Assembly: GCA_030272155.1 (NCBI GenBank)
Contig: CP126200.1
Span: 1,488,001-1,552,000 of the forward strand
Reading direction: 5' to 3'
Length of the DNA stretch: 64,000 bases
Source: Tetradesmus obliquus
Taxonomy: Eukaryota; Chlorophyta; Chlorophyceae; Sphaeropleales; Scenedesmaceae
Part shown: positions 27,088-52,962 of the stretch, piece by piece
Position numbering within the stretch: position 1 is the first letter of the stretch
How the letters are laid out: every line of letters starts with the position of its first letter
Position numbers and translations under genes: made by a program
The notes under the pieces: model-generated
Told to the model about the DNA's origin: nothing
What the model saw: the letters and a program-made list of their open reading frames with translations, nothing else
Database searches by the model: none

Positions 27088-30000
27088 ATGGGGGGCCTAA
27101 AGCGCTATTCGATCACCCAAGAGTTCAAAGGAGCCACAGTTCTTGTTACTGGTGAGGCGGTGGCAATCACGCAGGGATCCCGTAGCTCACGTTAGCAACA
27201 GGTGCAGCAGCAGCACCTGCTGCTGCTGTCAGGCCCGGGCCCAAAACACCGTATGTTTCGCACGTACAAGGCCTTTAACAATACAGCAAGGTCAGTAGTA
27301 CCATCTGCATGGTCGGAGCGCACTCGATACAGCATGCACACATATATGATCTGCTGACATTCTGGGCTCAGGCCAGTCCAGGCTGCAGCTGCAGCTGTCA
27401 GGAAGCAGGCCTCAGGCTGCAAGCAACCATCCTTCCCGCACAGACATACTCTTCATGTTCACGAGTTGCTTAGCTGTCTGCAGGAACCAACTCACTCACC
27501 TAACTAATTTTTGTGACTACAGCGAGCCGCTCGCATGCTGGACACGCATCTTGAGCAAACGCCATTTGCAGCTCACTGCTGTGCCTGCAGCAGTGACAGC
27601 TGCTTTGCCTGCAACGCATCCGCTGCCAAAATAAACACCATGCACAGCAGCAGCCAGCCGCTGCAACTTTCCCATCCTCCTGCCCTTTTCTGCGTCGCCA
27701 TGACGTCCAGCTCATGGGCAGGAGATGGGCGTGTTTCGTTCAACACAGCAGTGCTGCCTGTGTTGGATACTGTGGTGTTGAAGCTGCCATTCATAACACA
27801 GCACTACTGCTGCTGCCAACAACATCGTATAATGGCCGCATCCCTTGCAGGTGCCACTGGCTACATCGGCTCGCTCGTTGATGAGCTGCTGCTATGCACC
27901 ACAGCCGTTACCCTGATGTGGTATCGCCATCAACAGTTTTCTGCTGCCGACACATCTATATTAATGCCTGCAGGTGCTACTGGCTACATCGGCTCGCTTG
28001 TTGTTGAGCAGCTGCTGCGCACCACGGCAGTGTCCCGCATCTTCCTGCTGGTGCGCGGCAAGCGTGGCACCAGCAGCCAGGAACGCATCGCAAAGGTGCT
28101 ACGCAGCGGGCTGTTCCACTTAGTAAGAGACGACCCCAAGCTGCTCTCCAAGGTGGGTGGGCATTTCATCTGTACACATTGTCAAGATGCATGTGTAGGC
28201 ATCGACTGCAGGAAAGGTTGCAGCACACTTGCGTGCAGCCGCCAGACAAACAAAGGCACATGTGCGTGAACACGCATGAATGCGTGGGTGACCCATAGGG
28301 CAGCCCGACTGCCCCCAACACGCAACCGTACCTGGCTCTGTTGCCGTGGCCAATTCACAGTGTTGAACCCCAACTGGTTCCTGCTACTGCGCGGGTGCTG
28401 CAGTGCCACGTGCTGCTAACCCACAGCAAAGCAGCACGCAGTAGGGCCAGCATCATTGGTGGCTTGTATATCAGATGTTTCTCGATGCTGGCCTTGCATT
28501 GCACTTTGCAAACGTCTTTGCTTGACACTAAATGTAACAAGCATTCTAGCTTACGCCCTCAACCTTTTCTGGACGCTGCTGCGCCGACAGGTTGTGGTGG
28601 CTGAGGGCGACTTGAACAGTGAGCAGCTGGGCCTGAGTGAAGCCACCATGCAGCAGCTGCTGGAGCAGGTGGACATCATCATCCACTCCGCAGCAAGCAT
28701 AGGTATGCGTTCGCAGCACTGCTTTGCAGATGCACACGTGCTGCTGCAGCTGCGTGAGCAAGACATATATTTATACTGCAGCAGCCCTGCTATGTGCAGA
28801 AATGGTTTCTGGCAGCACCGCCGGGCAGGATGGCAGTAAATGCTGCTAGTTCAAGCACGTGTTTGCCTCAAGCAGAAAGCGGAGCTTTTCTTATGCTACC
28901 ACTTGTTATAACACATGATTTGTAACCTTTCCTGCAGGCCTGGAGGCTGACGTGCAGGCCACGCAACAACTCCCTTTTCCTGTACATACTGTTGCAATAT
29001 GTCTGCCATGTGCGGTTTTGTTGCAGGGCTTGTGGCTGACATGCAGGCCACGCTGCCCTGCAACTACCTGGGCACATGGCCTCCCTTTTCCTGTACATAC
29101 TGTGGTAAATTGTCTGCCATGTTTGACCCTTTTCCTGCAGGGCTGGAGGCTGACGTTCAGGCCACGTTGCGCTGCAACTACCTGGGCACATGGACTGCCT
29201 TTTCCTGTGCATACTGTTGCAGTCTTGTTTGCCATGTTCGATCCTTTTCCTGCAGGGCTTGAGGCTGGCGTGCAGGCCACGCTGCGCTGCAACTAACTCA
29301 GCACATGGACTTTAAAGTCAAATTTGCCTTTTCGTACAAACTGCCACTACATGTCTGCCATGCGTGGTCCTTTTCTTGCAGGGCTTGAGGCTGACGTGCA
29401 GGCCACGCTGCGCTGCAACTACCTGGGCACGCAGCGGCTGCTGGCGCTGGCTGCCGCCATGCCGCGCCTGCGCTGCTTCCTGCACGTGTCCACAGCCTAC
29501 GTGAACATGAACCTGGAGAGGTGAGCGGCAGCATGCGCAGCAGCCACAGATTCGGCCGTCCATGCATGGTCCTTCTTCAGGGGCGGGCAGCTGCCTTGCT
29601 ATTGCCATGCCTCCAAGCAGCACACTTGAGCAGTAAAACATGATTGTGCAGGAGTGGACAAGGCACTGTGCCCTTGTGCGAGCAGCTGTCTTGCAAGTGC
29701 TCTTTTTGCAAATCACATTGTAACGAGCGCCTGTTTGGCCCAGCTGCAATACCCACAAGCAGCTGGTACAGGCTCACCGGACCCATGCCAGCAATACAAC
29801 CGGTTGCACCTGGAAGTTGGTTTTGACTTGCGGGCACTCAGGGGCTTCAGGGTGGATGTGGTGCTGTACCCGTTGACAAGCAGCTGTCCTGCAAAGCCGC
29901 CAAGTCAAAGATTGTAAGTTTAACCTGCTTCTGATTTTCAATTTCTACATGTCTGCTTGTATGCAGGGGCGCCACTGTTGACGAGGTGCTGTACCCGCTG

Positions 30001-33000
30001 GCAGTGGGCAGGCAGGCGTCCCACTTCAGGGACGTGGTGGAGGACCTGCTCAGCATGGACCCAGAGGGAGCCAACGTCCGGGTGAGTAGTGCAGCTTGCT
30101 TTTCCCACTTCTTGGTCTCGCTTCTGTCCCTAGACCATGTGTGTGTCCTGGTGTGGCAGGTGCTGTGCCTAGATGGTGCCGATGACCACTTGTGCTGAGG
30201 TCTGCTATGGACTGCTGTGCACATCCATGTATGGACCCCGAGGGGGCTAACGTCCGGGTGAGCAGCACAGCTTGCTTTCGCCCCTTCCAGGTTTCTCTTC
30301 TGCCTCTCAGACCATGCAATTGTTGTAGTGTCGCTGCTGCTGTGCCTGGGTGATAACCCGTGCAAGCATGACGCAATGCTCCGTGCTGCGCCTGCCCCGA
30401 CTGACAACACGCCCTGTTCGTGTGCTGCAATGTGGCTCTTATGCTGCTGCCCACAGGCCCAGATGTACATGGACATGTGGGGCTTCCCCAACACCTACAC
30501 GCTGGGTGAGCATGTGCTGCCAGCACCAGCAGCTGCAGCAGCAGCGGAGGTGGCAGCAGCGGCAGCAGAGACAGCAGCAGCAGTGGAATATAAGTGAGGA
30601 CAGCAGCTGCTGCTGTGGCAGCATTGCTGCATTTTGTTGCCAATCAGGCAGGTGCCATTCAGCAGCTCTGCAACAACAACACACAGCAGGCGTACCACAC
30701 AGGGGCATTGCAACAAACTACACGTGTCATGGTGCACATACATCACAACTCATGGCTCAGCAAAGATCCTGTGGTTGTGCTGCAGGCAAGAGAACCTCAC
30801 TGAGAAGCTGGTGGCTGCTGTTGCTGACTCAGCACATCTTTCACTGAATGTACCTCTGGCTAAGTGCTGTTGTACCTCCGTGCTGCTGCAGGCAAGAACC
30901 TCACTGAGAAGCTGGTGGCTGCTGCACACCGCAGCGGGCTACCCACCGCCATTGTGCGGCCCAGCCTGGTGTGCGGCCTGGCAGGGGCTCCTTACCCTGG
31001 CTACTGCGGTAACCTGGCAGGTGCGGCAGCCAGCGATGCTGATTGGTTTTGGTCCACCAGCCATAGCTGGACAGCTGAAGGAACATGCCCAGCCCTCCAC
31101 AAATTCTGCTTGTACTGGCTTGAATCACAGCCAGAGACGCTGATCAAGGTGTCCCAATGTTCAGGTTGCATTGTGCTGCGTGCAGGAAACCATGCAAGCA
31201 TCACAGTTGCAGAGTTCCTGCGCTCTTGCAACATACACATTGCCGCCAACCAACTTACTGCTGCTGCTGCTGCTGCTGCTGCTCCTCCTGCTGACAAACA
31301 CAACTTTTCTGTGCAGGCCCAGTGGGCATGGGTGTGGCCATGGCTGTGGGCCTGTTTGACAAGCTGGAGTCAGTTGCCATGGTGCCAACACACGTGTGGG
31401 ATGCAGTGCCTGGTGATGTGGTGTCATCCGTCATCCTGACTGCAGCAGCTGCCACAGCAGCAGGCCTCAGCATCAATGAGTATGCTGCGGATGCACCGGA
31501 GTCGGTTGGGGGCCCGCTGATTGTGCATGCAGGCACAAGCACAACGTACCCAGTCAGCATGGCAGAGGCGTCATATGCAAGTGAGTGACGTGTTATGGTG
31601 TGAATGTGCTATTGGTGTTATGATATACGTGAGCGATTTAGAATGTGATGCATTCCATAACCATTATGTGATTGGAACAGAATGTCCTGTAGATCTGGGT
31701 GCGTGCCTGCATTGTGCTGTGGCTGTGGTGCATCCGCATGCTGTGCAGCAGCTGCTCTGTAGATGCAAGGCTAGCTGAGGGCTGTCGAGGTAGTGATGCA
31801 ATGAATCAGCAGACGTAGCTTGTCCAGCAGAGGCAGCAGGAACCTGCACTCTGTTAATTCTTTGCTCGCAGCATCTGGCAAGTTACGCCTCCTCTCACAA
31901 TCATGGCATTATGCACAAGCCGCCTCATCCATCACATGTATGGTTGCATGCACTGCAGGCGTGGACTTCCTGCGGGCCAACCCTGCGCCCTTCAAGCTGC
32001 CGGGCTCGAGCCTGTTCAAGATCCCGCTGGACTACGTGCCTGATGAGGCAGCAGTCAAGCGTCGCAAGTACTGGACGGGCTGGAAGGTGCGGCAAGGTTC
32101 ATCATGCTGCGTTTGGGTGGCAGGCAGCAACCACAGTACTGCGCTGACTTTGAGACCATCGATCACAGTTGCTGCAGCTGGTCAATGTGGCTGGCAATGA
32201 ACGATCCTGCAGCCCTGCCTGTTGCCTGCTACTGTGGCACATTGCTTGAGCTCATGTGCGCGTTGAGGCGTCACATAGATGTCGCAACCACTGCTGCAGA
32301 ACCGTCGCTGTTCCATCCTGCAAGGCAGCTGTGATGTCCTGCAGATCTTTATCGGGTCTGTTGCCACCACCACTGCTGCTGCCGGGCCTTCACCTCCTGT
32401 CTGTTTGTGCTGTGCAGGTGTGGGCAGCTGTGCACTTGCTGCAGCTGGTGCGCCAGAAGAAGACAGCGCACAGGCTCAAGTACGGCTACCTGGCCTGGGA
32501 GGTGCGTGCTTTGCTGCAGCACATGCAGCAGCACGCAGCGCGTCAAGAGCATCATGTACCATCATAACAAGCATCATAGTGTGGTAGCATTGCAACTCGT
32601 GGGCATGCTGCAGGCCCATGCAGATCAGCACTACTTGGTCCATGCTGTGTATGTGCTTTGGACATGATGCTCTCAACAGCAGCTCTGCCTTGCCAGGACA
32701 ATGATTTTCGGCATGCTTGTGGCTGAGCATGCGTGTTTGTTGCCAACTGTGTGTTGCAGGTGATGAACAGCAGCAAGACTGACGTGAACATCTTCTTCAG
32801 CAGCAGGAACCTGCTGCAGCTGGAGGCGTTGCTGGACGAGGGTGACGCAGGTGGGGAGGGCAGACTGCTGGTTCTGCATGTGCATGCGGCGGTTTCATTT
32901 TGCATAAGCAGGTGTTGAAGGTGCTGGAGGATTACCATGCTGCAGCTGGAGGCGCTGCTGGACGAGGCTGATGCAGGTGGGGAGGGCAGAGGTGCATGGG

Positions 33001-33829
33001 GCGGTTATGTTTGCATAATCAGGTGTCGAGGTGCATGGGGCGGTTATGTTTGCATAATCAGGTGGTGAGGTGCATGGAGTGGTTATGTCTGCATAAGCAG
33101 GTGGTGAGGTGCATGTGGCGGTTATGTTTGCATAAGCAGGTAGTGAATGTGCTGGAGGACTGTGTGCTGCAGCTGAAGGGGTGGCTGGACGAGGCAGAAG
33201 CTGGTGGGCAACCAGCCATTATGTGGTGAGTGCTGCAGAGCAATCTTGTTTCAGCACTTTCTAGTGCTCTGCTTGGTCGCATGACTCACCAAGCATGCCG
33301 CAGCCGTGCTGCTGGCTTGTACAGCTTGGTGTGCATGTACACCGTGCGCAACGCGTAAGTACCCTGTCGCCCCTTGCCTTTGTGCCCCTTGCCTGTGCAG
33401 ATTCGCGGCTCTTCAAGATCACATGGACGCTCAAAGAAGGCGGGTGGCATCGCTACATTGCCACACAGCTGGCGGGCATGTACAGGCAGGTCTTTGGCAT
33501 CGGCAAGGTGAGCAGCGCAGTGTGGAACAAAGTGCCTTGAAGGCATCAACTGCAACATGTAAGGCCATCTTCTGCTGCAGCATACAGTTTCTGTGCTGGA
33601 CAGATCAAAGCTGCCTTTAAAGCTCGTCAGCTTTCCCAGCTTTCCTCAGGTACTGCTTGCATGTAACATATACTGCTTGTACTGCCTTCACAGGTCAAGG
33701 GTCTGAAGTACAACGACTTCCGCTTCATTCCCAACCAGCCCATCACCCCAGCAGACATCGCTGCTGTGGCAGCAGCAGACTCGCTCATCAGCAGCGGCAG
33801 CAGCAGCAGTGGCGCAAGACTGGCAGCAG

Positions 33830-33861
<32 letters not shown>

Positions 33862-34362
33862 GTGGAGATACAACCTCAGCTGCCCGCTGCTGTTGCCAGG
33901 TGGGTGGCTGCTGCTTGTTGCTGCGGCAGTGTTAAGGGGAAGGTGAGCGCTGCAAGCGCTACATGATGTTTGACCGTGTTCAAAATCGCAGCCACTGCAA
34001 TGGGCCAGAAAGCATGACATTATCAAACATGCAATATCCGCTGATGCTGGCGGCATACTTTGTCATGGCTGCTGCAAAGCTGACAGCTGGACTGATTCCT
34101 TGACTGGCTTTCCGCTCCCTGCTGCATGTGCTGCTGCCTCTGCGCGTGTCCTGCAGGCACCCAAGCACGCAGGGTGGACAGCCAAGCGAGCAGCAGCACC
34201 TGCTGCAGCAGCTCCTGCAGCCTCACAGCTCAAGTTCCAGTGGAGGCTCCAGCGACGCCAGCCCCGATCTGAATAACGTTATAACATCCACCTACATTGG
34301 GGGCGCAGCAGCATTCATCAAGGTGCCAGCATCTGGTTCTGAGAGGTTCTCCTTTGACCTGA

Positions 34363-34395
<33 letters not shown>

Positions 34396-34769
34396 TGGAC
34401 GCGGCTCCTGAGCTGGCAGCATCATTGAGTGAGGGCGCGGCTGGTGTGGGGTATGCTCGCAGGGCTATCACACTGCCGCCTGCTGGCATGCTTGTGAAGG
34501 CTGCCGGTGATGGAGCGCAGGATGTGGCAGGTGCTGCTGCAGATGCAGTAAAGGCAAGTGCATTTGACACAGCAGCAGGCGCAGCAGCAGCAAGTGCAGC
34601 GTGCGGGGGTGGCATCGTGCCTCGCAAGCAGTCTGCTGGTGCTGTGTTGCAGCGGGTCTTGAACCTGAACAAGCCCAAGCAGCAGCAGCTGCTTGCTGCT
34701 AGCCCAGCAGGCATTGCTGCTGCCAGCCCAGCAGGAGTGGCTGATCTGGCAAGCAAGAAAGATGTGTGA
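27088..34769 (+). CDS. FAR: Fatty acyl-CoA reductase (alcohol-forming type)
   Basis: Reduces fatty acyl-CoA with NADPH to fatty alcohol, for wax or ether lipids. Exons: 27088-27151, 27974-28152, 28591-28702, 29382-29520, 29967-30081, 30457-30505, 30892-31020, 31317-31580, 31959-32086, 32418-32501, 32760-32850, 33401-33507, 33694-33899, 34157-34769. Every junction is GT-AG with matching phase: 2280 nt, 759 residues. Motifs: Rossmann VLVTGATGYIG at residues 18-28, formed across intron 1; HVSTAYVN; catalytic Tyr217 and Lys221 in YTLGK; IVRPSLV; and a C-terminal FAR/'sterile' domain including LFKITWTLKEGGWHRY. A 272-residue Gln/Ser/Ala-rich extension follows that domain. The start at 27088 has a GCCATGG context; in-frame ATGs at 26950, 27022, 27034 and 27061 are alternatives (up to 805 residues). 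Introns contain many partial exon copies. Confidence 0.9.
27851..27915 (+). repeat. Copy of FAR exon 2 start with acceptor
   Basis: After CAG at 27848-27850 this stretch reads as GATGYIGSLVDELLLCTTAV, nearly the same as the true exon 2 beginning at 27974 (GATGYIGSLVVEQLLRTTAV). It lacks the rest of the exon and an obvious donor. It completes the Rossmann motif equally well if used. Confidence 0.85.
28938..29440 (+). repeat. Five tandem copies of the FAR exon 4 acceptor and 5' edge
   Basis: Acceptor-plus-exon starts occur at 28938, 29027, 29141, 29256 and finally 29382 (the real exon). Each reads like GLEADVQATLRCNYLGT and then runs into the same intron tail (cctttttcctgcag type). The spacing is 89-126 bp. 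Only the last copy continues into full exon 4 with a donor at 29521. The intron between exons 3 and 4 is therefore a small tandem array. Confidence 0.9.
29842..29890 (+). repeat. Degenerate copy of FAR exon 5 start
   Basis: Matches the beginning of exon 5 (29967) around VDEVLYPL; here it reads VDVVLYPLTS. It lies about 120 bp upstream of the true exon. Confidence 0.7.
30229..30320 (+). repeat. Copy of FAR exon 5 end with donor
   Basis: Repeats the 3' edge of exon 5 (MDPEGANVR) and its GT donor plus following intron sequence, about 175 bp downstream of the true donor at 30082. It represents a decoy 5' splice site. Confidence 0.85.
30785..30835 (+). repeat. Copy of FAR exon 7 start with acceptor
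   Basis: The CAG acceptor is followed by sequence very like exon 7 (NLTEKLVAA), about 107 bp upstream of the true exon at 30892. It carries a 2-nt insertion near its start that shifts the frame. Confidence 0.85.
32877..33215 (+). repeat. Intron 11 minisatellite with copies of FAR exon 11 end
   Basis: About five copies of a roughly 39-nt unit (GTGCATGGGGCGGTTATG core) lie at 32877-33150. They are flanked on both sides by copies of the 3' edge of exon 11 (LQLEALLDE): one at 32939-32985 and one at 33168-33215. All sit in intron 11 of FAR. Confidence 0.85.
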
Positions 34770-37382: not shown

Positions 37383-40300
37383 ATGCCTCCAAGCCCTGGC
37401 TTTGATGAGGCAGCCTTCGTGAAGCTGCTACAGCAGCTTAAGCTTGCGGAAGCGAGAGACGATAGTTTGTCAGAAGACAGACTTGGGCGCCTGCTGGCCA
37501 TGCTGAGGCATCTGCTGATGAATCCGGAATGCTTGGAGTACATGGACACAGAGAGGCTGGTGTCGCTGGCAGCCACTGCGCTGGCACAGAGTCTGCAGCT
37601 CAGCTTCAGGCAGCAAGCATCAACAACAGCGGCTTTGTGCATGGGTCATATTGAAGGCATACTCAGGGAGTGTGCCTCAGCTCATGTATTATCAAGACGC
37701 TAGCCAAAACAAGCAGCCCCCTGTTCCTGCACAGCAACATATCCTGCCTTCTCCCTGCGATTTCCATCTGCGCCGAGGCTGCAGTCTTCACCTGGAGCCA
37801 CACCCTTGACAGCAGCAGCAGCAGCACCGGCAAGCGTCACAGCCAGTCTGTCAGCCAAATATCCAAGGAGATGCTGCAGCTGGTGCACAACGACTGGACA
37901 GCGAGCACGCTGCAACAGTTTGGCATGTATGCTGCCATGGCTGACGACTGGCCAGCTGACTTGCAGCAGCATGTGCCTGCAGGCTGCATTTTCAAGAAAT
38001 CAGCAGCAGCAGCAGCAACAACAACCCCAAGCATGCTGGATGTAGAAGCTGCGAATCAGGCAGCTGCAACAAATAGCCTCATTGCGTCTGAAGCCCTGCA
38101 GCAGCTAGCAGCGCTGCAGGTCTTTAGAGCTGATGAGCTTGTGAACGAGGTGCAGCGCAAGGTTTGAGGTGAAGCAAGCAGCAGCACAGGCTTCAGCAGC
38201 GCTTACAAGAGCTGCAATGGTGCCAGCAGCAGCAGTAACATGTGCCCTAAGGCCAAGCCTCCCATGCACAGCAGCAGCCAGGGCAGCCCCACCAAGCATG
38301 GCAAGCAGTCATGCTGCACGGCAGCACCAACAGACAACTACAGGGATTTTCTCAGCGACAACGTGCTACACAATGGACAACTGCTGCTCAAGGTCGACAT
38401 GCAACATCCAAATATGAGAGTCATCAACAGGAAGACAATCGAGGTTGCTAGTTTGACAGCACACTCTATGTTAGCTTCAGCAGCACGCTACTTGCATTGG
38501 TGGGCGCAGCAAGGAGGCATCACAACAGCGTTAAGCCAGGCGCCGGCAGTGGGCAGTGGCAGCTGTGTCTAGCCGTCGTCCAGCAGCAGAGCAGCAGCAG
38601 CAGCAGAAGCAGCACCTCCGCACCGCCCTGTCAACTCCAGGAGCTGCCCCATTGGGTGCTGCTTGTCTGTCTGGCCTGCTGTGAGATGGCTTCTGTGTGG
38701 CCTAGCGGGCCTCGGTATGGCAACCTCGGCGTTGGTACATGTGTGCGTCTGTGCCGCTCTTTTGTTGAAGGCATCAACGCGGCAGCTGGCAGCTTTGCAG
38801 GTGGGACGGCAGGTGGCCAGCCAGCTGCTGCCGGTCTGTTTGCGGCTGACCCGGCAGCGCCTGCGCTGCACATGCTGGGGCCAGCCCTGGTGCGTCAGGA
38901 CGCCTTGACCCATCGCGTGATGAAGGAAGATTTGCAGGCCTCGCTGATGCAAGTCAGCTGCTGTTCAGCCAGATGTGCAGCAATATGGATGAAGGCATGC
39001 ACGACACTGCGAAGCGCCAGGCTGAGCAGCACATCCATGCGCTGCAGTACAGCGACCTGCTTGCAGCAATCATCACAGCAGGTGCGGGCTGGTCTTTGCT
39101 TCCATGTGGCACTTGGCTCTGCTGGGCAGCGTTTGCAGTGTGCACGCAGTGACACTTGCATACATATTATGGCTTTGAACACTCCAGGTGTGGTCGACAG
39201 CATTGCGTGAGTCTTCTACAACATGCCAGGCTTGAGCCTGCCGCATGACTGCAGCCAAAATGCTTTGAATGACGGGGATGCTGAGCATGGTGTTGTGTAG
39301 TCTGTCTCTAGTATTGGCTGCTTGCCAAAAGCACAGCAAGTACATATAGACTCACTATGTTGCCGCCACCAACGCTGTTCTTGAATGCAGACACGGCTGC
39401 AGGAACACAGCGCTTGCGTTCTGCCTTCTGCCAGAAGCCAGCCGGCAGTGCAGCAGCTGCAGAGCTGGCAATGAGGTCCGAACCCAGCAATTGCCTGCTA
39501 GACTTTGTCACTCAGGGCCTATGCTTTGCAGCAACCACTGGTGACCTGGCAGCACAGCCTGAACATGCAGGGGCCTTATTCTCATTGCTGATGACTGCAG
39601 CGAAGACCGCACAGCACTACAGCGGCAGCAGCGGAGACAGCAGCTTCAGTAGTGGCCATGGGGTTGCAATGCTCAGTTACTATTCGGCAGCTCATCTCTG
39701 TGCCATGACCACGCAGCTAACTCAGCAGTGCTGCAATGCTGACAGCAGCAACAGCAGCAGCAGCAGTACACAGCCCAGCGGCCCCACCAAGAAACGGGGT
39801 GTCAAGGGCAAGCTATTGCAGGACAACAGTACAGGTGGCGGCAAGGATGATGGCGGCAACAGCAAGAGCACTGGCAGTGACATGATGCGGTGGCCAGTGC
39901 TTGCAGCTCGCTGTGTTTTGACGATGTGCCAGCTGCTTGAACGCGCAGCGGCAGCAAAAGGTGGCAGCTGCAACGCTGCATCCCAGCAGCACAGTTCCAG
40001 CCCAACAGCAGCAGCAGCAGCAGCAGGAGGAGCTGTTAAGCTGCACACACCGCAGCAGATGCTGTTGTTGCTGACTTCTGCCACCTCATCCCTGGGTGAG
40101 CTGGTGCAACAGCTGCCCTTGCCACACACTGAGCAAGCAGCTGTTGAGGTGTCAAAGGAGATGGACGGCAGCGCAACCGTCAAGGCTTCACGCAGGCCAG
40201 GGACAGCACCAGCAGGCAAGGCAGCCATGCCAGCAGCCACATCAATCCTGAGCTCCACTGTCAAGCAGCTGCGCAAGCAATTCACGCTGCTGCAACAAGT

Positions 40301-40682
40301 ACTGAATGATGCTGCTGGTGCTGCATCAACTCCATGCAGCTCCCCCACTGCCAACTGTGACCCCACCAACTGTGAAGTCACGGTCTGCAGTAGCAGTGCG
40401 CTGGCGCAGTTTGGCAATCTGCCGGAACCAGAGCTGGTGACGAAGGTGAAGGCCTTCGCGGGGCAGACGTTTGCTGCGCTGCCGCTGCTCATCTGCTGCG
40501 GCAACCCTGCCTGCATGAACCTCAGCAAGCGCAGCGAGACGGTGCTGGCAAGCGGCCCCCGCGGCATATGCAAGGGCTGCAGGGCGGTTCGCTACTGCAG
40601 CAAAGAGTGCCAGCTGGCAGCATGGCCGCTGCACATGGGGGTGTGCAAGCGCCTTCAGAAGGCGGCAGCCAGCGAGGAGTGA
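37383..40682 (+). CDS. MYND zinc-finger protein 2
   Basis: Paralogue of the MYND gene at 5.3-9.3 kb. Recognisable coding blocks: 37383 to about 37675; about 37731-38165; parts of 38240-38560; 38590-38950; about 38948-39080; and 39385-40682. The splice sites between them are mostly unresolved, so the span is firmer than the exon list. The C-terminal finger is complete: CCGNPAC, then ICKGC, YCSKEC and WPLHMGVC, giving the canonical C-x2-C-x5-C-x3-C-x7-H-x3-C second half. The remainder is Ala/Ser/Gln-rich with CAG-encoded runs. Blocks such as PVLAARCVLTMCQLLE recur in MYND gene 3. The start at 37383 was chosen as the ATG nearest the first dense coding block. Function beyond protein interaction is unknown. 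Confidence 0.7.
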
Positions 40683-41099: not shown

Positions 41100-42365
41100 C
41101 TGGGCTCAGCTTATCGGGTTAGCATGTTTCCAAGTTACTCACCTTTGTCAGCATTACAACAGCCAGTAGATGGGTTGGTTATCACCAGCGACTGGGTGGG
41201 AGGGCCACATCAAGGAGTGCTCAAACAAGCGGCATGGGCTAAGGTGGCGATGGCGCCAGACAGTCGTTGACATGAACTGTGGACGCTGTCTGCTGGATTG
41301 ATACATTGCAACAATGTTGTCTCAGGCAACCAAGGAACGCATGCCTGAGCCAAAAACATGGCGGCGTCTGTTCATATGTGTATGTGTACTTCACAGCTGA
41401 GCTGTGTGTTCAAAGGGTGATGTGTGCGTATAAAGACAACTATGTGTGTGTGTGTGTGGGTGGGTGGGTGATCGTCAGCTTGGGTGTGTTGCTTTATGCC
41501 CATCATTGGTTTGTATGAGCTAGGAAGCCACAGATTGATGGAATATGCCATTGGTGCTGTAGCATGTGGGCAGTACAGCCAAGCAAGATATTGCGCAGGA
41601 TCCGGCTGCCCCAAGTGTGAGCTGTTGTTATCCTTGCTTGTCTTGTCCTCTTATTTCTTCATCTCTTCAAATTTCTTATTCCTTCTCTCTAGCTCATGGC
41701 AGTCTCTGTCCATTAAAAAAATGCCAGCGCCAACCGCAAAAGCCTGGGAATCGCAGGTGTTCCTGGGATAATTGCTGAATCACCTGTGGAGCATCAGTTT
41801 GAGCCTAGCTAGGCTCTATCTATAGATGTTGTTGTCAGTAGCTGTTTCTCAATGTAAGAGGCAGCTGGGTAAAAGGTTTGTGCGTACATAGCCCTATGAC
41901 TGGTGTTCTGCGGAAGAGTAGTGTTCTGCCTGCAGTACGCTGATTCAATGGCTAATGCCTTGTCATGTGACAGTTGTGGCAGATGCAGAGCAAGGAGGCT
42001 GGCTGTCGTGTCACGACAGCCTACAGCATCCCTGAAGTTAAATGTCTCACATGGCTGTTGAGTAATGCTTCAAAGTAGCAGGTGTAAAGCCTTACCTGAA
42101 GGGACAGTAAGCAGCACGTGAATTCAAGCAGGAGCTTCACATCAGTCCTGTGTTACACTTCAACAGCATGAGAAGCTTTGTAGACTGCAAGGGAACGCCG
42201 ATCAGGTGCAGAGAGTCCGGCATCTCTAAACTATCTTGAGTGTGGCGAGGCAACGCACCCGTGCGCGTTAGCACTGGATCGAGGCTGCCGGTGCTAAAAG
42301 CGAACGCTGGAGGCACCATGGCAGGTCATCCAGCTGCGAAGAGCCAATTCAAGACAGTGACTTAG
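41100..42365 (+). repeat. Segmental duplicate of the WDR20 promoter and first exon
   Basis: The sequence matches 47550-48415 in order, most clearly over 42000-42365 against 48027-48415. The match runs through the ATG (42318) of the WDR20 first exon. The copied exon reads MAGHPAAKSQFKTVT and then stops at TAG 42363-42365, whereas the true exon has a GT donor at that point. The copy lies just upstream of MYND gene 3, and it differs by many substitutions and small indels. Confidence 0.88.
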
Positions 42366-42420
42366 CAGCACAGCCTGCGCATGCCAGCTGGCTGGTTCCC
42401 GTGCTGGCGACCCGCTGCCA

Positions 42421-43829
42421 ATGCCACACGTTGCATTGGCGGCGGCAGCAGCAGCAGCAGCAGCATGCTTCAGTTTCGGTCAGCTGTCGGCAGCGGCCCG
42501 CTACTCACCAGCAGCTGGCCTCGGCCTCATGGCCATGCAACTGGCTCGGCAGTGCAGAGCTGCTAACAGCAGCGGCAGCAGTGGACAGCCAGGCAGCCCC
42601 AGTAAGAAAAACACCGGCAAGAACAAGCTGCCGCAGGCCAGCAGCCGCTGCTGTGACAGGCGGCGGCAAGAATGGTGGCGGCACTAGCAGAAGCAGCAGA
42701 GTAGCTAGCTAGCGGCAGTGACATGACGCTGTGGCCAGTGCTTGCAGCTCGCTGTGTGTTTGTTATGTGCCAGCTGCTTCAACACGCGGCAGCAGCAGAG
42801 GACCTCAACTGCACACCTGCATCCCAACAGCACAGTGATTTTAGCCCAGCAACAGCAGCAGCAGCAGCTGATGATGATGACGATGATGAGTTGCGCAGCC
42901 TGCAGGAGATGGCGCCATCTCTGGCGGCTGCCACCTCATGCTTGGGTGAGCTGCTGCAGGGCCTGCAGCAGCTGCCTGCAGCGCCAGGCAGCCAGGCAGT
43001 ACTGCAGCCCGGCCCTGCTGCCACAGCTGCACGGGCAGCAGGTGCTACCCCAACAAGAGCAGAGCATGCAGCTGCCAAAGTGTCAAGCCAGGTGGACGGC
43101 AGCGCGACCATTAAGGCTTCACGCAGGCCAGCGTCAGCACCAGCAGGCAAGGCAGCTAAGCCAGCAGGCACAGCAGCGAAGATTCCCACCCTCAGTCAAC
43201 TGCTATCACAGTACATGCCATTGCAGCAGGCACTGGATGCTGCTGCTGCTGCAGCAGCAGCAGCTCCGCGTAGCTCTTGCGCTGCCACCTGTGATGGCAC
43301 AGTCTGCCGCAGTGGTGTGGCGGGGCCAGAGCTGGTGGCGAAGGTTAAGGCCTTTGCGGAGCAGGCCTGTGCTGCGCAGCCACTGCTCAACTGCTGCGGT
43401 AACCCTGCGTGCATGAACCTTGACAAGCGCAGCGAGACAGTACTAGTGCGGGCGGCCGGCAGCCGCAAGCGTCCCCGCTGCAAGGCGTGTCGCTGCTGCA
43501 GCAGGGAGTGCCAGGTGGCAGCGTGGCGGCTGCACAAGCCGGTGTGCAAGCACCTGCAGGAGGCGGCAGCCAGCACAAGAAGTCGTTGCAATGGCTGGGC
43601 TGCAGGCGTGTTGCTACCCCCAGCAGGGATACTACTGCTCGACTGCTGCGGCAACCCTGGCTGCCTGAACCTTGGCAAGCGCAGCGAGAAAGTGTTGGCA
43701 AATGGCAGCCACAAGTGTCCCCGATGCAAGGCGTGCCGCTACTGCAGCACGGAGTGCCAGCTGGCAGTGTGGGCGCTGCACAGGCCAATATGCAAATTGT
43801 TGCAGGAGGCAAAAACCAGCGGGAAGTGA
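42421..43829 (+). CDS. MYND zinc-finger protein 3, double-finger, 5' end damaged
   Basis: Partial duplicate of MYND gene 2. The intact frame is 42723-43829. It encodes PVLAARCVFVMCQLLQ, an Ala/Gln-rich middle and two successive MYND fingers separated by about 37 residues. Finger 1 has CCGNPAC but RPRC in place of the expected CxxC, so one usual zinc ligand is Arg. Finger 2 (CCGNPGC, CPRC, YCSTEC, WALHRPIC) is complete. Upstream, 42421-42722 aligns with 39650-39890 of gene 2 but needs a frame change near 42640 and crosses stops near 42711, so the 5' part is broken or spliced in an unseen way. The WDR20-like promoter duplicate ends 55 bp upstream. It may be a truncated gene or a pseudogene. Confidence 0.6.
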
Positions 43830-44731: not shown

Positions 44732-46877
44732 ATGATGGTCTTGAACGCCAAACTCTTCAAACAAGAAGCTGGTGATCACGTGGAGGCTGACGTTATCCTC
44801 GTGATCAGGTGCTGGAAGCAGGGCCTTGAGAACCAATGAGATGCTGCTCCAGGTACCAGGCATTCTATGTGGATGCCTGCAGCTGACTTTGTTGCTTGAT
44901 CTTCTTGCAAGCAGGTCAACAACAACTTCAGATGCTGATGATGATGCAGCAGGAGGTGAAAGTGTCACCGTTTCTGCCCACAGCGTTGTCTTGGACAACT
45001 GCGAGTACTTCAGATCGCAGCAGGTGTGTGTGCGCGCGGAGGGACGGGGCCTGCTGTGTTGTGGCAATCATGCACCGTGCGTGTAGCGCTGCTTTATGCG
45101 TAGCGCTGCTCCACAGAGAGAGACTTTGCATGACTGCAGCAATGTAGCTGCAGTGCATCCCTGGTGGCCACTGATGCAGATGCCAGCGTAGTGCTGCTCC
45201 AAGTGTACTGCTGTGTGCATGTTGTACATGTCTAGATCTGGCAACAGCAACGTTAGGCGTTGCTCTGATGACCATGTTGCCACTGAAGTGAGCGAGCTGG
45301 GCCTTGAAAGCAGCAGCCCTGGGAGCTGTGCAACACAGCAACTGTGGTTTGCATTGCATTGATGAACCTAGAGTGCCAACCACTGCTGCTCAACACCGGC
45401 TGCTGATGCTGCTGTCATGCGCTTGCTGCTGCTGGCCAACAGCATCTCTGCAACTTCCTTCATCTGATGCACTGCTTCTGCTACCCTACAGGCGAAGCAC
45501 CGGCGGTCAAGCGGACAGGCCCCCGACACCCTCAATGATAATCTTGGCAGCGGCAGCAGCGGCACCATTTACTGGGGCAGCAGCAACAGCAGCAGCATGA
45601 GGAGTAGCAGGCGTAGCAGTGCTGCACATGCCGAGCGGCCAACAGTGTACCTCACTATTGACACCAAAGAGCAGCTGCCAGCAGCAGAGGCAGTCATTGC
45701 GGCAATGTATGATGTGCCAAATGCAGTGAGCAGCCTGCAGCAGGAGCAGATGGTGCATGCGCTGGCCATTGCAGACATGGTGGATGCAAAGGCTGCAGTG
45801 CAGCAGGCGCTGCAGGCACTGCAAGCAGCAGCAAAGCAGGGCCTCACAGCAGGTGCAGCAGCAGCAGGCGGTGGTTCTCAGCTTGCGTGTCCCGCCTGCC
45901 GCCGTGCTGCAGCTGCTGCCAAGCATTGTCGCGCATGCACCCTGCTGCAAGGTGGATGCGGCAGACTTCAAAGCAGTAGCAGCAGCCGATGCTGGCGGTG
46001 CGCTACAGCAGCTGCTGCTTGCTGCATTTGGCGACCTGCAGGCAGTGTGGGCAGATAGAGAGCTGCAGGCGCTGCTGCTGCGGATGCCGCTGCAGGCCAT
46101 GCAGCTGCTGCTGAGCTCGGACCACCTGCTTGTCCCCTCAGAAGACACTGTGCTGTACACTGCCAGGCAGTACGTGCAGGCACAGGACGACGGCGCAGCT
46201 GCAGCAGCAGCCATAGCAGCGCTCGCACAGCTTGTGCGTGTGCGGCAGCTGTCATAGTTTGAGCTGCGCTGCTCTGCTCTGCTCTGCGAGACGGTGACCG
46301 GGAGCTGCTAGGCTCCTATGATACGCAGCTCATGTGCCTGTGCTTGGAGAGGGGCATGGTCACTGCCACTGAAGAGGATGCAGAGCTGCGGAGGGAGTGG
46401 AGCAAGGGCGCCCCAGCCAGCTGGCAGTTGGGGCCACGGCAGATCAGGGCGCCAGAGGATGGGGCGCTGCTGCAGTGGCGGCTGTCACTGGAGCGTCTGC
46501 AGCAAGCCTGCAGGGGCAGCTTTGCGCAGCCGAGGGCAGTATTCCTGCACAGTCCCAACAGCCCACCCTTCGGCGGTGTAGCGTGGCGCATGATGCTGGA
46601 GTGCTACCAGCGAGATGGGGGTACTGTGATAGGGCTGCGTGTAGCGCCTGTAGGTCTGCCAGCTATAGCGCCGGTGCAGTTCAAGTTTTCTGTCGCATGG
46701 CTCGGTAGCAAGGCCACAATCCGCAGTCCCGAGATTGCGCCGCAGCATGCCTGTGAGCTCGACTTTGGCTTGCAGCCTATGGCGGGTGACGGCTGGGATG
46801 CAAAGTCCTGGGCAGCTGCCTGCCTGCCTACAACAGGCGAGACGCTGCTGGAGCTGTGGGTGCACAGTGTGTACTGA
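44732..46877 (+). pseudogene. BTB-BACK-MATH-like gene with three lesions
   Basis: Resembles algal and plant BTB adaptors of Cullin-3 ubiquitin ligases. Exons 44732-44808, 44915-45023 and 45488 onward agree in phase. BTB features: HVEADVILVI, VTVSAHSVVLDNCEYFRSQ and RPTVYLTIDTKEQLPAAEAV. BACK features: AMQLLLSSDHLLVPSEDTVL and RQYVQAQ. The end (GVAWRMMLECYQRDGG then VQFKFSVAWLG) resembles a MATH/TRAF-like domain. The frame is broken in three places: a one-base shift within the CAG run at about 45852-45875, an in-frame TAG at 46255-46257, and a second shift in a TCTGC repeat near 46270-46288. No introns explain these, so the locus is probably a recent pseudogene, or the assembly has errors in repeats. 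The start is the first of two ATGs at 44732 and 44735. Confidence 0.7.
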
Positions 46878-47274
46878 TGAAGATGCGTGTCTGCCAGCAC
46901 GTTGGCAGCGAGATTGCATTCGGCAAGTAAGCATGCTAGCATAGTGGGCGGTGCATAGTGCAGTCAACAAAGTAAACAGCAAACGTAAGCGTTGTGGCCT
47001 GTGCTGGTTGGTGAGGCTGGATCCTCTGCAGGGTATGCAAGTTGTGCTCCCATCAAGTTGTGCTCCCATCAATACGCCATCTTATTGCACTGTGCGGCTG
47101 GAGCGGCTGCGGTGCTGCAAAGTTGCGTGGGGTGTCAGTTCTGTGTCGCTATCGTGCGTGGAAATGAGGTAGATCACAATGAGCACCCAGCAGTACAGCA
47201 GGTCCGCGTGCTGCGCAATGACGCGGTGAAACCGTAGCTGGTCGCCGCCCAGGGACTCCATGATCTGTGAACCG

Positions 47275-47310
<36 letters not shown>

Positions 47311-48362
47311 CAGGAGTCAGTGAGAAGTAGCTGCATTTGCAAGTTTGCAGGCCTGCTGCTACTGCAGCAGGAAATGCCAAGCCAGGTTACCGACAATGGC
47401 AGAAGCTGGCAGTCAGTGAGCGGCGCCTGCATATGCCAGCTTTGCTGCCTGGCTGCCTGTTGTGCTGAGTGGTCAGGCGCAGTGCATAAAGGTCATCTGC
47501 GCTCAGCTTCAATGCTTGGCATGTTTTAAGTTGCACAAGATTGTCTGAGTGAGCGCCACAACAGTTGGCGAATGACTTGGTTGTCACCAGCGGCTGGGTG
47601 GGTGGGCCACATCCAGGGGCACTTACCTAAGTGGGCTCAGGTGTGCCATGGCATCGAAGGGCTGCTGGGATGAACTGCAAGTGCTGTGTTCTGCATTGAA
47701 ACGATGACATACATGTAGCTGCAGGCAAGCAAAGCATGCAAACGCCTCAGCCACCAACATGGCCATCCCTGAGCAAATGCGTGTGTGACGCTGTATGGTC
47801 CACGCGGTGATGCCTGCATGTTCAGGCCGGCTGTGCATGTGTGCGTTTGTTGGCTTGGACATGGCAGACGATTTCCGACTGTCAGTGATGTGTACAGGCG
47901 TTGATTGGAGGTTCTGGCTAGCAGCGGTGTACTGCCGCGGGGGCAGTACGATTACAGTTGCTACGGCCCTGTCGTGACAGTCTGTGCAGAGCTACAAGGG
48001 GCCTTTTAGGCCCTAACAGGGCGCTGTCTGTCGTGTCAGTACAGTCTACAACCGTCTCAGAAGTGTAAATGTCTTACACAGGCTTTTAGCACGCTTGATC
48101 ACAGCAGGTGCCAGGTCCTACCTGCAAGCACCGTAAGCAGCACTTGGATCCAGCAGGGCTTCACGTCGGTGGTGTGCTGCGTAGCAAGAGCAAAATAAGC
48201 TTTGGAGACTGGCAGAGAACGTGGATCAGGTGCAGAGAGTCCGGCATCGCCAAACTACACTGTATGTTGTGTGTCGAGAGGCAATGCACCCGTGCGTGTT
48301 AGCACTGGTTCGAGGGTGGTGCCGGTGCTAGAAAGTGAACGTTGAAAGGAGCTGGAGGCATC
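46878..48362. other. Intergenic; WDR20 promoter region and source of the segmental duplicate
   Basis: No gene recognised. A CAG run sits at 47278-47310. From about 47550 to 48362 the DNA is the counterpart of 41100-42317, so it contains the WDR20 promoter and 5' UTR. No TATA box was assigned. Confidence 0.5.
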
Positions 48363-51300
48363 ATGGCAGGTCACCCAGCTGTGAAGAGCCAGTTCAAGAC
48401 AGCAGAGGGCAGGTGAGTGTTGTAGGTGTGTGCTGATGAGACCCACCTGGAATGGTCTCACATGGAGAGATGTTAACAAGCTGATCAAACTTCAAGTTGC
48501 TTTATGAACAAGCAATGATGGGTGGTGTGCAGCAGTGATGCCTACAGCAGTAGTGCCTGGGGGCTCTTCTGCTGCATGTCAGACGTGCCAACCTGCTTGT
48601 ACAAAGCATCGCACCAGCCGTCAAGCAAACGCAAGCATATGCAACCGCTGCCAATCTTCCAGGCCGCGTCATTCTATGTATTCCACGCCATGCCTTGCCA
48701 TGCCATGCATGTCCTGCAAACCCTTGTCTCGTGAGCAGGTATGCGCTGCACTCTGAGAAGACGACTGGCCTCGTGCCCTTTGCCATGCGGCGCACCACAC
48801 GGCTCACCATCGCCACGCTGCATGGCGGCGATGAGGAGGGCATGTACATGGTGTACAATGTGGGGGACTACCTGCATGTGGCTCCCTTTGACGCCACAGA
48901 CAAGGTGCGGCGACAGCACTGCCACAGCAGTGGCAGCAACAGCAACAAGTGTAAGCAGACTGCGTGCAGCTTGGAGGCCAAAGGCAAATGTGTTGGCATG
49001 CAGCAATTGCACCTGCTGCGTGGCAGCGATCCTTGTGCTGATGCGCTGCAGCGCACGATGCTTGCTGCCGCATCCGCACTGTCAGCAGTGACGCCTGACA
49101 CAGTGCCAGGCATAGCTGCGCATCGCACCATCAGGCAGCACACTCCCTGCAAGCACCACAGCTCTCACATGCCACAGCTGTCTGATTACTTCGCTGTTGG
49201 CCGCGTTTGTTCTTTGTGTTTCCCTGTGTGCACGTGCTTGCAGGACCCTGTGTGCTCGCTCATCTTCAACCCCTCAGCAGTGCGAGATGGCCACCCCAGC
49301 TGCCACGCATACTATCCCACAAAAGATGGGCTGGACCTCCTCGTGGGGTTTGCCAATGGCGAAAGTGTGTACACAGCAACTAGGCTGGTTGGGCTGTTTG
49401 TGTATGGATGCGCAGCAGCGCGGCACGGGAGTCGGCGTCAGCAGCTTTAGCAGCAGCTGGCAGCTGGAATTGCAGGAGTGAGCATGGCAGTGCTGCAGCT
49501 ACGGCAGTGCTTACAATGGCAGCTATGTATGCACTTGGCAGTGCTGCCTTGCAGGAGCAGCGTAAAGGCGCAGTGCACCAGGTCGGCCAGCCACCTGCTT
49601 TGCTAGCCACGCCATGCTGATGTACACTACAGTTTTATGTCTAAACAAGGCGCATGTGCGCAGCTTATTATGTAACTTGCTGTGCCTGCTGTCATGCTGT
49701 TTGCAGTTGCGCTGATGTCGCTGCGGACGCAGCTGCAGGCGCCACCCGGCAACACGCGGCCCATCATAGCAGCAACGCTGAATGCAGACCAACTGCATGA
49801 CAGCAGCAGGTGCAATGCAGTGCTGTGGGCCCCGCGCAGCAACGGTTCGCAGTTCCTGGCATGCCATGCAAGCGGCAGCATCCTGGTGTACAAGAAGGTG
49901 CGGTGAAGGAGCTATCCAGCAGATGCGCGGGGGCGGATGAGCACCAGCCATTGAAAGGGCCGCAGGCACTCCTGCAGTGGTCCAGCAGGGCTCTGGGCTT
50001 GCTGGCAGCTGCTGATGTGTGGTCCTGTGCAGTCGGCTCTCCTTTTTGAGCAGATTTGAATCTAAACATTGATTGAAGCAGCTTATGCAGGCAGCAGGCA
50101 GCACACGCTGCCCATGCGCCACACTTCCTTCCAGACCCAAGCAGCATGACACGGACCTTGCTCGTTTGTGATCGACCCTTGGCAGTTCCTGAAACCCTCC
50201 TGCTGCTGACCTTTGAACCCTGCCCCGCAGAACCCTGGCATGACTGGCGAGGGCTCAGGCAAGCTGCTGTCACACCTGTCAAGCAAGTCCACAGGCAGCA
50301 ACCCCAGCAGCACCATCAGCCTGGCCTGTGGCGGCATCAATGACGCTGCCTTCTGCCCGGATCGGGGCAGGCTGGCTGTGGCCTGCAGGGACGGCAGTGT
50401 GCGGCTGCTGGAGTGGCCCAGCGGCGCGTGCCTAGGGGGATATCAGGTGGGTGGGGGCAGCAAGCATAAGAAACAAGGACAGGTAGTTGTTAGGTAGCAT
50501 CTGCTTGGGGTGTTGGGTGTGCTGTTTCCAGGAGTGGTGGGGTGAACAACTGAGTGTGGCTTGCAAGCAGATGGAATGGTGGCAGCTGGAGCGGCGCAAT
50601 GAGGGCGGCAGCTGCCAGCAATGACTGGCGTTGCGGCACCGCATGCATCCGCTGATGGTGGTTGGCCGCAGACATGCTGCACGGTGCAGCAGCAGCGCCG
50701 TCTGAAACTTTGTCAAGATATCCGCATGTATGCATGTGCTGCTGCTGCTGCTGCAGAGCTACTACGGCGCTGCGCTGTGTGTGTGCTGGAGCCCAGATGC
50801 TGCGCTGCTGGCCTCAGGCGGGGAGGACGACCTGGTCACAGTCTACAGCGTGGCAGATCGCCAGGTCAGTGAGTAGCCAGAGCAGCTTGCATGACGTTTG
50901 CTTGCACATGCAGCTGTTTTTACTGCAGCAGAAACCGATGCGGTGTGATGTGCATGTGAGCCATGCATGTTGGCACCAGCAGCGCGCCTTGACCCTGGGC
51001 AGGAGGAGGCTGGTCAATGATCCTCTCAACTCAATCAACGCTGCATGGCAGCTTCCTTCACTCCTGGCCGGCTGAGCTACCTGAGCTGGCTAAGGGGCAG
51101 GCGCTGCCAGCCTTCCAGATGCTTGCAGGCTGGCGAGCAGCTGCATGTTGTGGTGGTTCTGGCAGCACGACATCGCCTGACAGCTGGTACGTTTGATGAT
51201 GTGACTCCAGAGAATCACCTATGGCTGTGCTGATGCTGCTGCTTCAGGTTGTGGCGTTTGGCGAGGGCCATGCAAGCTGGGTGAGCCGGGTGGCTTTTGA

Positions 51301-52962
51301 CCCCTGGCTCTGCACAACCAGCAGCAGCAGCGGGCCAGGTGAGTCACTGATGGCATGCACGCCGCAGCAGCTGTGGCTGGCTGCAACCTACACAGCAGCA
51401 GCAGCAGTGGCCAGTTTGGTGAGGCGGCTGCAGCAGACAGCACTGCTTCAGCATCAGGCTCTTGCTGGTCACCACTGCTGCACTCTTAACGCCAATTGTG
51501 TGGCGTACGCTTGCAGGTTGCCTAGTCAACTGGTTATGCGCAATGGCTCTCAAACAACACTTGTGCTGTTCGCGTTTGCTGCAGGCTGCCAGGTGCAGGA
51601 GCGCTTCTACCGGCTGGGCAGCGTGGGCCAGGACACCAACCTGTGCCTGTGGGACCTGGTCATAGAGGAGGACCCGGCGGTCAATGCAGCAACGGGGCAG
51701 AGCGGCGGGCTCAAGTGAGCGGGTTCTGGCGTGCTTATGCAAACGGGACAAGCTGTTTGTGCGTGTCTGCTCGGATTCAGCCGTAATGCGTTTGATGTCA
51801 TGACAGGGATGTGATGCGCTGCTGTGCACAGCTCTGCATGGCCATGGCTTGAGGTGTTGTCTATCCTATGTGGAGCTGTACTGTGTTGTGCTTGTGGAAC
51901 CTGGTCATAGAGGAGGACCCAGCCATACATGCAGCAATGGGGCAGAGTGGCGGGCTGAAGTGAGTGTTGCCATGCGCATGCAGGTTGGGCTGTGTTAGGT
52001 TAGGTGTAGTGCGTTGTGGAGGCAGTTGTGCCTGCCTGGGCTGTGATGCGCTTTGTGCACGGCGATGGTGTTGATGCGTTGGTGCTGTTGTGTTACTGAT
52101 GTGCGGTGCTGCTACTGCGTGTATGCGTGCATGCGCGTTGCTGGCTGCGCGTAGCAAGCTGCATGATCGCCTGTGTTGGAGGTGCACACCGATGCTGCAA
52201 ACCTGATGCGCTGGATTTCGCCACGGTTTGTGCCAATTGGACTAACATCTGCACGCGCTTTTGATGCACTATTGTGCTGCAGGCGGGTTGCCAGCCAGTC
52301 TCAGGTCAACATCCCTACAGTCAGCAGCAGCGCAAATCTAGCAGCACACCAGCAGCAGCACCACTCCCAGCCAGAGCAGCAAGCAGCAGCAGCACCAGGC
52401 CACTCCCGCAGCACATCTGACGGGGCCTTGGCTGGCGTAGGCACAGGCATAGCAAGCAGCAGCGGCAACAGCAGCAACCGCACAGCGAGCGGCAACTTGC
52501 TGTCGCTGCTGAAGCAGCAGCCACACCAGCAGGCAGCGGGGGCTGCGCCGCAGCAGGCGGCGCCGGTGGCCCTGTCGCTGCCGCGCAGGGAGATGACAAT
52601 GCTTCCGCCAGTCATGCAGCACCGGTGAGTGCAGAGGCAACAGGTTCTGGCGCAAGTTTGTTTGGGTTGTATTGTACAGACATAGCAGTCGTAAGCAGAT
52701 GCGGGTGCAGTGTAGCGGATGCACAGTATCATGAGCCGCCTGCGTAACCTGTGTCAGCGGCTTGCAGGAAAGGTTCTCGCGCCTGCTGTCTGACCTTTGC
52801 TTGCACTGCGCTGCTTGCTGCGCTCGCTGTGCTTGCAGGATACACGTAGAGCCTGTGTCTGAGATGCTGTTCACAGAAGAGGCCATCTTCACTGGCTGCT
52901 GCTCAGGGCAGATCAAGTGCTGGCTGCGGCCTGGCCTGCTGAGCAGCGAGGAGCCCAGCTGA
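48363..52962 (+). CDS. WDR20: WDR20-type WD40-repeat protein
   Basis: In animals WDR20 binds and activates USP12/USP46 deubiquitinases; the fungal relative is CreC. Exons: 48363-48412, 48739-48904, 49244-49364, 49707-49897, 50231-50446, 50757-50864, 51248-51338, 51585-51714, 52283-52624, 52839-52962. All are GT-AG with matching phase, 1539 nt, 512 residues. Diagnostic order: KSQFKTAEGRYAL near the start, LLVGFANGE, FLACHASGSILVYKK, INDAAFCPDRGRLAVACRDG, YYGAALCVCWSPD, GGEDDLVTVYSVADRQVV, GHASWVSRVAFDPW, YRLGSVGQDTNLCLWDL. A Ser/Gln-rich insert of about 115 residues precedes the last blade (IFTGCCSGQIKCWLRPG). Human WDR20 has a similar insert. TGTAA, the usual green-algal poly(A) signal, lies at 53059-53063. 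Confidence 0.9.
51870..51966 (+). repeat. Copy of WDR20 exon 8 end with donor
   Basis: Repeats the 3' half of exon 8 and its GTGAG donor, 245 bp downstream. It encodes LCLWNLVIEEDPAIHAAMGQ against LCLWDLVIEEDPAVNAATGQ in the true exon, with several substitutions. It lies in intron 8, whose 3' end is the true exon 9 at 52283. Confidence 0.88.

Follow-up and report, generated by a model that had tools for sequence, protein, structure and literature searches.

Intronic copies of exon edges in Tetradesmus obliquus and the unequal conservation of their exon and intron parts

We analyzed a stretch of 64,000 nt on contig CP126200.1 of the Tetradesmus obliquus genome (104.66 Mb, 17 contigs), referred to below as the window, in which partial copies of exons lie in the introns next to them. 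Self-BLAST and direct reading identified seven sites in three genes (FAR, Alfin-Tudor and WDR20) that together carry 11 exon-edge copies, each including the splice site (Table 1). These include every place listed in the original prediction for the three genes, five of them in FAR. All 11 copies were in direct orientation, were located inside the intron belonging to the copied edge, and retained the AG or GT, consistent with the earlier claim that the copied unit spans the splice junction. The nearest copies at the seven sites were 106, 121, 123, 126, 126, 176 and 245 bp from the real edge, and the most distant member of the FAR array was 444 bp away. According to the gene model described below, the copied exons are 106-189 nt long, of which about 27-73 nt are present in the copies.

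The identity of the FAR gene was confirmed by a match to PF07993 that starts at 27973, and that of the Alfin gene by PF12165. PF00400 supported a WD40 gene; WDR20 and Tudor are labels taken over from the original prediction. Five of the seven real edges agreed with the gene model. The other two, 27974 and 32850, were assigned by reading because in the model the first exon begins at the ATG at 27964 and the other donor is placed at 32879. In the FAR array, Tandem Repeats Finder (TRF) reported a period of 114, and the copies starting at 28938, 29027, 29141 and 29256 matched the real exon start at 28, 37, 37 and 39 of 40 positions, respectively. A 39-bp minisatellite occupies positions 32989-33146, between the two copies at the last FAR site.

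Table 1. Exon-edge copies in the window, and an in-frame domain duplication of a different kind (positions are those of the window).
Feature	Coordinates	Strand	Details
Alfin-type gene, copy of acceptor and exon start	24384..24437	+	real exon start 24505; 37/40 identical; TTGCAG kept; distance 121
FAR copy 1, acceptor and exon start	27851..27908	+	real exon start 27974 (assigned by reading); 36/40 identical; distance 123
FAR copy array 2, four copies of acceptor and exon start	28928..29381	+	copy starts 28938, 29027, 29141, 29256; real start 29382
FAR copy 3, exon end and donor	30231..30347	+	copy of roughly the final 27 exon nt, ending at 30257; real end 30081
FAR copy 4, acceptor and exon start at 30786	30778..30820	+	real exon start 30892; 95% across 43 columns with 2 gap positions
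FAR copies 5, exon end and donor at 32976 and 33203	32938..33208	+	real exon end 32850 (assigned by reading); 36/40 and 32/40 identical
WD40 gene (WDR20 in the original prediction), copy of exon end and donor at 51959	51887..51964	+	real end 51714; 87% over 78 bp; distance 245
In-frame tandem duplication of a MYND domain, outside the phenomenon	43382..43810	+	spacing 252 bp, a multiple of 3; MYND is the original prediction's label

For a wider view of the genome, 20 random stretches of 10 kb were chosen, all from the first 3 Mb of a contig. A small gene-finding model was trained without RNA on these stretches, the window and the FAR loci (about 423 introns); the trained splice consensus was CAG/GTGAG for donors and CTGCAG/G for acceptors (the slash marks the junction). 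Edge counts sought direct copies only, and low-complexity queries were dropped. For the base-by-base identity profile across the junction, removal of exons shorter than 30 nt left 601 edges. In the gapped 60-mer set, removal of exons shorter than 70 nt and of edges without flanks left 392 edges, 258 from the random loci, 54 from the window and 80 from five loci with FAR paralogues, a non-random set. The 60-mer threshold was set at 44; the corresponding null, built from flanks of other loci, reached 31 at its 99.5% level and no more than 52 in 1,469. One random stretch, L019 (G000:C2:898364-908363), was left out of junction counts. Its G+C content is 0.325, compared with 0.55-0.61 elsewhere in the random loci, and it is possibly organellar or foreign DNA; a tRNA search of its positions 1-10000 gave none.

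In the random loci, a downstream copy of the last 40 nt of an exon was present in 41/261 cases, and an upstream copy of the first 40 nt in 39/251. The same test on windows off exon edges gave a copy in about 3-8%, and in about 10-11% at some 100 nt into introns, where the copies themselves lie, when the other direction was counted. An order-1 resampled null from 8 loci yielded 0/79,965 40-nt windows at a level of at least 34/40. Gapped 60-mers identified copies for 63/392 edges overall, about three times the frequency for intron interiors (21/374). The fraction was 44/258 in the random loci (17%, with a locus bootstrap interval of 7-28%) and 5/54 in the window. In the intron across the exon, copies were found for only 4/244 edges of the random loci and for 6/372 of all tested edges. 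This own-side placement is expected of a duplicated unit, since such a unit must contain the junction. With the random loci excluded from training, 46/230 edges had a copy (20%; 10-30%), as opposed to 5/215 across the exon.

The original prediction had proposed a locus- or genome-wide process and suggested comparing junction-spanning copies with random placement. This comparison revealed an excess both in the sampled loci and in the window and supports a process at the scale of the genome. In 19 random loci, 63/89 local duplicate clusters covered a predicted junction, compared with 34.2 +/- 3.9 after random shifts (maximum 49 in 1,000); in the window, the numbers were 6/11 and a mean of 2.6 (p about 0.03). 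With regard to exon-edge copies, the window is unexceptional within the genome. The end of the copy was at most 3 nt from the junction in 52/63 cases. A count of copies starting exactly at the splice site (45/63) was rejected as evidence for the boundary and discarded, because the exon query itself is cut there, and the intron side was measured separately. Start- and stop-codon edges, whose number was too small to serve as a control, had copies at 1/9 ends and 1/15 starts, the latter being a FAR exon with a misplaced model start. The combination of direct orientation, proximity and a junction inside the unit is that of a tandem internal duplication across an exon-intron boundary.

The copies were unevenly spread. 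Ten of the 17 loci with testable edges contained copies, and the random-locus copies were concentrated in L012, which encodes eIF5B (15/44), and in L026, which encodes HydG and a neighboring gene without a Pfam match at 1e-5 (11/44). Without these two loci, 18/201 edges were copied. No edge out of 49 was copied in L021 and L022 together, although their numbers of testable edges were similar to those of L012 and L026.

The gene models often called copies exons, and homology was therefore required to tell a real edge from its copy. When predicted eIF5B was aligned to eIF5B in the PDB, the copies appeared as gaps or unaligned stretches. The extra sequence comprised one of two VLEVKTME-LGTTVD stretches, additional LVTRIKSLKTP-like stretches, four D(I/L)FSK blocks, a KTFAVIIAFDVPVS block and a LPTSFINKDPIV stretch. 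The HydG alignment likewise contained extras, such as a second VGIGTLF-LYDYK stretch and a repeated VGMSQMSAGS. As judged from these alignments, the copies in these two genes lie outside the conserved protein.

For the characterization of the copied units, the 11/63 matches lying more than 3 nt from the junction were removed, leaving 52 clean pairs; gapped pairs were also left out of per-base identity counts. The distance to the best copy peaked at 100-139 bp (22/52), and another 9/52 copies were found at 230-249 bp. The same spacing mode, with a peak at 100-130 bp and few below 70 bp, was seen when local duplicate clusters of every kind were taken from the 20 random loci and the window. Where two successive predicted exons were both at least 70 nt long, the gap between them had a median of 537 bp with a copy (n = 46) and of 299 bp without (n = 145). 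By locus, copies and gap length were correlated with a Spearman coefficient of 0.88 (15 loci with five or more gaps). Since longer introns also offer more room for copies, this association does not separate cause from effect.

The main oddity of the copies was overlooked by the original prediction: within a duplicated unit, conservation is higher in the exon-derived part than in the intron part. Identity between real edge and copy was about 0.93 over most of the exon side. On the donor side it dropped to 0.35 by the fourteenth intron base, and on the acceptor side it fell more slowly and was still about 0.5 at twenty bases into the intron. In ungapped clean pairs, 1376/1488 bases (92.5%) matched at exon positions 5-40 from the junction, and 138/180 at the next four intronic bases.

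Such a difference might arise without any further process if tandem duplications occur at random, if those that straddle a junction are tolerated and remain recognizable for longer because their exon partner is constrained, and if intron turnover erases the rest. Local duplicate clusters are indeed frequent everywhere, the 20 random 10-kb loci containing 90 of them. An earlier count of 55 pairs (46:41:86 by codon position, ratio 0.34, no stops) gave a third-position share of 0.50, compared with 0.46 for a simulated free copy, roughly as an unconstrained sequence would give. Four pairs that were found from the intron and had a matching exon part also fit, with mismatches at 6/144 exon positions (4.2%) and 14/198 intron positions (7.1%), which is near neutral, and the FAR array comes near to fitting, with divergences of 14.0% (exon) and 19.7% (intron).

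We compared the clean pairs with a neutral simulation of donor edges. Their ages were uniform up to 0.30 substitutions per site, only silent changes were allowed in the real exon, and the copy drifted freely. At exon identities of 0.92-0.97 (n = 21), 14% of the pairs had an intron identity of at least 0.7, compared with fractions of 0.39-0.87 in simulations with indel-to-substitution ratios from 0.8 down to 0.05. At exon identities of at least 0.97 (n = 12), the values were 17% observed and 0.71-0.98 simulated. Hence even 0.8 indels per substitution left more intron similarity than was observed. A comparison of copies with each other, both partners being intronic, pointed in the same direction: 42/594 exon-derived positions (7.1%) were mismatched, compared with 128/547 intron positions (23.4%). 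The exon-derived part was the less diverged one in 14/14 pairs and 6/6 arrays; these 14 are the pairs with a gap-poor intron alignment out of 50, and a few alignments may be due to chance, as the homology call passes 35/1,327 unrelated pairs. At the named-gene loci, mismatches amounted to 22/260 and 57/272, respectively (7 pairs; 4/4 arrays). The corrected ratio of exon to intron divergence was 0.26 (0.37 for the named genes), compared with a neutral expectation of 1. Both in the comparison with the simulation and in the 14 copy-copy pairs, the two parts of the unit thus failed to age alike, as they should after a simple tandem internal duplication. Finally, a search from intron-edge 50-mers found junction-reaching copies in 12/350 cases, several times fewer than the exon-edge 60-mers gave at the same threshold, which is somewhat harder to reach for a 50-mer. 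This rarity is not expected under plain decay. Neutral decay alone fits these data poorly, and we regard it as an unlikely explanation of the copies.

Alternatively, the splicing machinery may bind the copies, and selection at the nucleotide level may keep them as competing sites that tune splicing or intron retention. A splice matrix scored 45/52 copies above zero, with a median of 5.2 compared with 6.4 for real sites, and GT, GC or AG was kept in 46/52 copies as printed, or in 48/52 if two evident alignment offsets are allowed. At the level of sequence, but not beyond it, this bears out the decoy splice sites of the original prediction. There is also a precedent in the intronic In100 element of human caspase-2, described in PMC2082412 as a decoy 3' splice site. 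It resembles the copies in being a splice-site-like sequence near a real site; the copies differ in that they derive from the neighboring exon itself, are frequent in our sample and are known from sequence alone. Strong selection for splice function is, however, argued against by the observation that the copied GT/AG was kept in 83/90 cases (92.2%), no better than the exon interior.

The pattern of changes in the exon part bears on the same question. Differences between real edge and copy were distributed over codon positions as 71:41:129, with 83 nonsynonymous and 105 synonymous single changes (ratio 0.25), and thus fell mainly on third positions. Differences between copies affected all positions (46:27:49; 60 nonsynonymous and 31 synonymous changes, ratio 0.58). 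The exon part contained an indel in 17/81 copies and stops in 2/976 codons. Codon-position and indel counts suggest that the real exon is constrained and that its copies come closer to changing freely, if not with a fully even pattern. On these grounds we rejected the view that coding constraint acting on the copies is the only cause; they look mostly non-coding and are not clearly coding. The alternative exons and the exon birth proposed in the original prediction are conjectural. A copy-copy ratio below 1 would be compatible with selection on the copies, whereas their indels and the spread of their changes over all codon positions speak against it. On balance, maintenance of the copies as functional splice-site mimics seems rather improbable.

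A different way to explain the poor intron match would be that only the exon edge and the splice consensus were copied, for example by templated insertion, and that the intron part was never duplicated. Identity over 30 intron nt was indeed at most 0.53, close to the null, in 38/52 clean pairs (at least 0.7 in 5/52), and 34/52 pairs lacked intron similarity above the 95% level of the null. The remaining 18/52 exceeded this level, and in an earlier, less clean set the z score of the intron part was greater than 2 in half of 82 pairs. Some units were nearly intact, such as the one at position 9695 of L026, which matched at 36/37 exon and 52/53 intron positions. Nearly intact units and the pairs with intron similarity indicate that at least some of the duplications comprised the whole unit. 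In addition, the close approach of most copies to the junction is required by the geometry of tandem duplication and not by dispersed insertion, and the spacing mode equals that of local duplicate clusters generally. We therefore consider copying limited to the edge doubtful. An artefact of gene models or assembly is very improbable: the models were self-trained without RNA and called many copies exons, but the model trained without the test loci agreed, protein alignments marked the copies in eIF5B and HydG as extra, and most copies have diverged by several percent, which is not typical of assembly stutter.

The explanation that we favor, tentatively and at somewhat less than an even chance, is tandem duplication across splice junctions, followed by decay of the unit and exon-templated homogenization of its exon stretch. 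Short tandem duplications, with the commonest unit near 115 bp, would repeatedly straddle splice junctions throughout the genome. Each would place an exon edge and its splice site into the edge's own intron, which would become longer in the process. Direct orientation, placement on the own side of the exon, a preferred spacing and an association with longer introns are all observed, and duplication of this kind explains them. Preservation of the exon part during loss of the rest seems to call for an additional step, and homogenization from the exon appears to be the best candidate. The remainder of the unit would drift away, and the stretch matching the exon would be reset towards it by template switching or gene conversion between neighboring repeats, with the selected exon possibly serving as the lasting template. 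Splicing presumably passes over the copies in most cases.

Several observations weigh against duplication with homogenization. Conversion is inferred from sequence comparisons within one genome, and no event was seen directly. The last four exon bases matched in 164/180 cases (91.1%), compared with 92.5% in the interior, so there is no gradient at the tract end. The contrast between exon and intron parts is inflated by the selection of pairs for exon similarity. The FAR array is only mildly unequal, the four intron-found pairs are near neutral, and the third FAR copy in Table 1 is 78% identical over all 117 columns and alike throughout. The dN/dS-like ratios and the codon-position distribution among copies, finally, allow for some constraint on the copies. 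Put more broadly, there is a real but less than even prospect that a sizeable share of exon edges (about one-sixth in our sample, unevenly distributed) has an echo in the intron that is actively maintained in exon-like form, by exon-templated homogenization or by selection for splice mimicry. Introns would then grow in steps of about 115 bp and store spare, nearly identical exon edges.

Short duplications within genes that carry splice sites along are of a previously described kind, to which PMC3443670 and PMC4974935 refer. The exon-edge copies have in common with them that splice sites are taken along in a short duplication within a gene. They differ in that one exon edge is repeated in a pre-existing intron, at a spacing of about 115 bp, and that the exon-derived part is better kept. 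Hellsten and coworkers reportedly described intron gain by tandem genomic duplication in 2011.

In the published record, tandem genomic duplication has been demonstrated in vivo as a route of intron gain (PMC3443670). The Rogers model and the case of potato RdRp, in which an intron was gained by tandem duplication, are presented in PMC4974935, where Gao & Lynch are also cited for the segmental duplication of whole introns. In Rogers-type gain, as here, tandem duplication introduces a new GT/AG into a gene; our observations consist of existing introns that are longer when they contain copies and do not include a new intron. Tandem exon duplication, which can lead to mutually exclusive exons (PMC9013439), is similar in that exon sequence is duplicated in the adjoining intron. 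The window copies, however, represent 27-73 nt of a single edge, and those in eIF5B and HydG are extra to the conserved protein. None of the seven window sites contains a complete exon copy, although no systematic search for a second splice site within the copies was made. Introners (PMC9860276) are comparable as a repeated process that acts on introns genome-wide. In our case, the two sequences tested, the FAR array and the WDR20 unit, gave no dispersed relatives. Searched against the 104.7-Mb genome with only the best candidates scored, the array matched nothing beyond itself and the unit returned only its own two places, and on this basis a mobile element family was rejected. No account of exon-edge copies at such a scale was found among the matches listed, in a search of titles and the beginnings of abstracts that left subscription journals largely outside.

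How introns grow and how alternative splice sites originate are open questions, and a genome in which about one-sixth of sampled exon edges is echoed locally would be a natural laboratory for both. It could show how spliceosomes ignore near-perfect copies of their targets some 115 bases away, and on whether neighboring repeats homogenize with a selected exon as template. In practical terms, the copies disturb gene prediction, as self-trained models repeatedly called them extra exons.

The original prediction had counted the last exon of a second MYND gene (MYND2) as a further case. This did not stand: the copies at 43382-43564 and 43634-43810 lie in frame inside an open reading frame (ORF) that extends from 42705 to 43829, and the case was rejected as an exon-edge copy in favor of an in-frame duplication within one ORF. 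This ORF and the one at 39312-40682 are similar neighbors (both MYND genes according to the original prediction), and degenerate copies of the end of the latter lie past its stop codon.

Other repeats in the window include two stretches, 41998-42357 and 48023-48402, that are 76% identical and 6 kb apart and perhaps represent a dispersed repeat, and a 21-bp minisatellite of about five copies at 59252-59361. Long CAG/GCA-type trinucleotide runs are also present, for example at 8434-8516 and 6205-6386, and many of them overlap open frames. The ORF at 63425-63907 on the minus strand contains a GTSAAAPFVAG motif, which we take to be subtilase-like.

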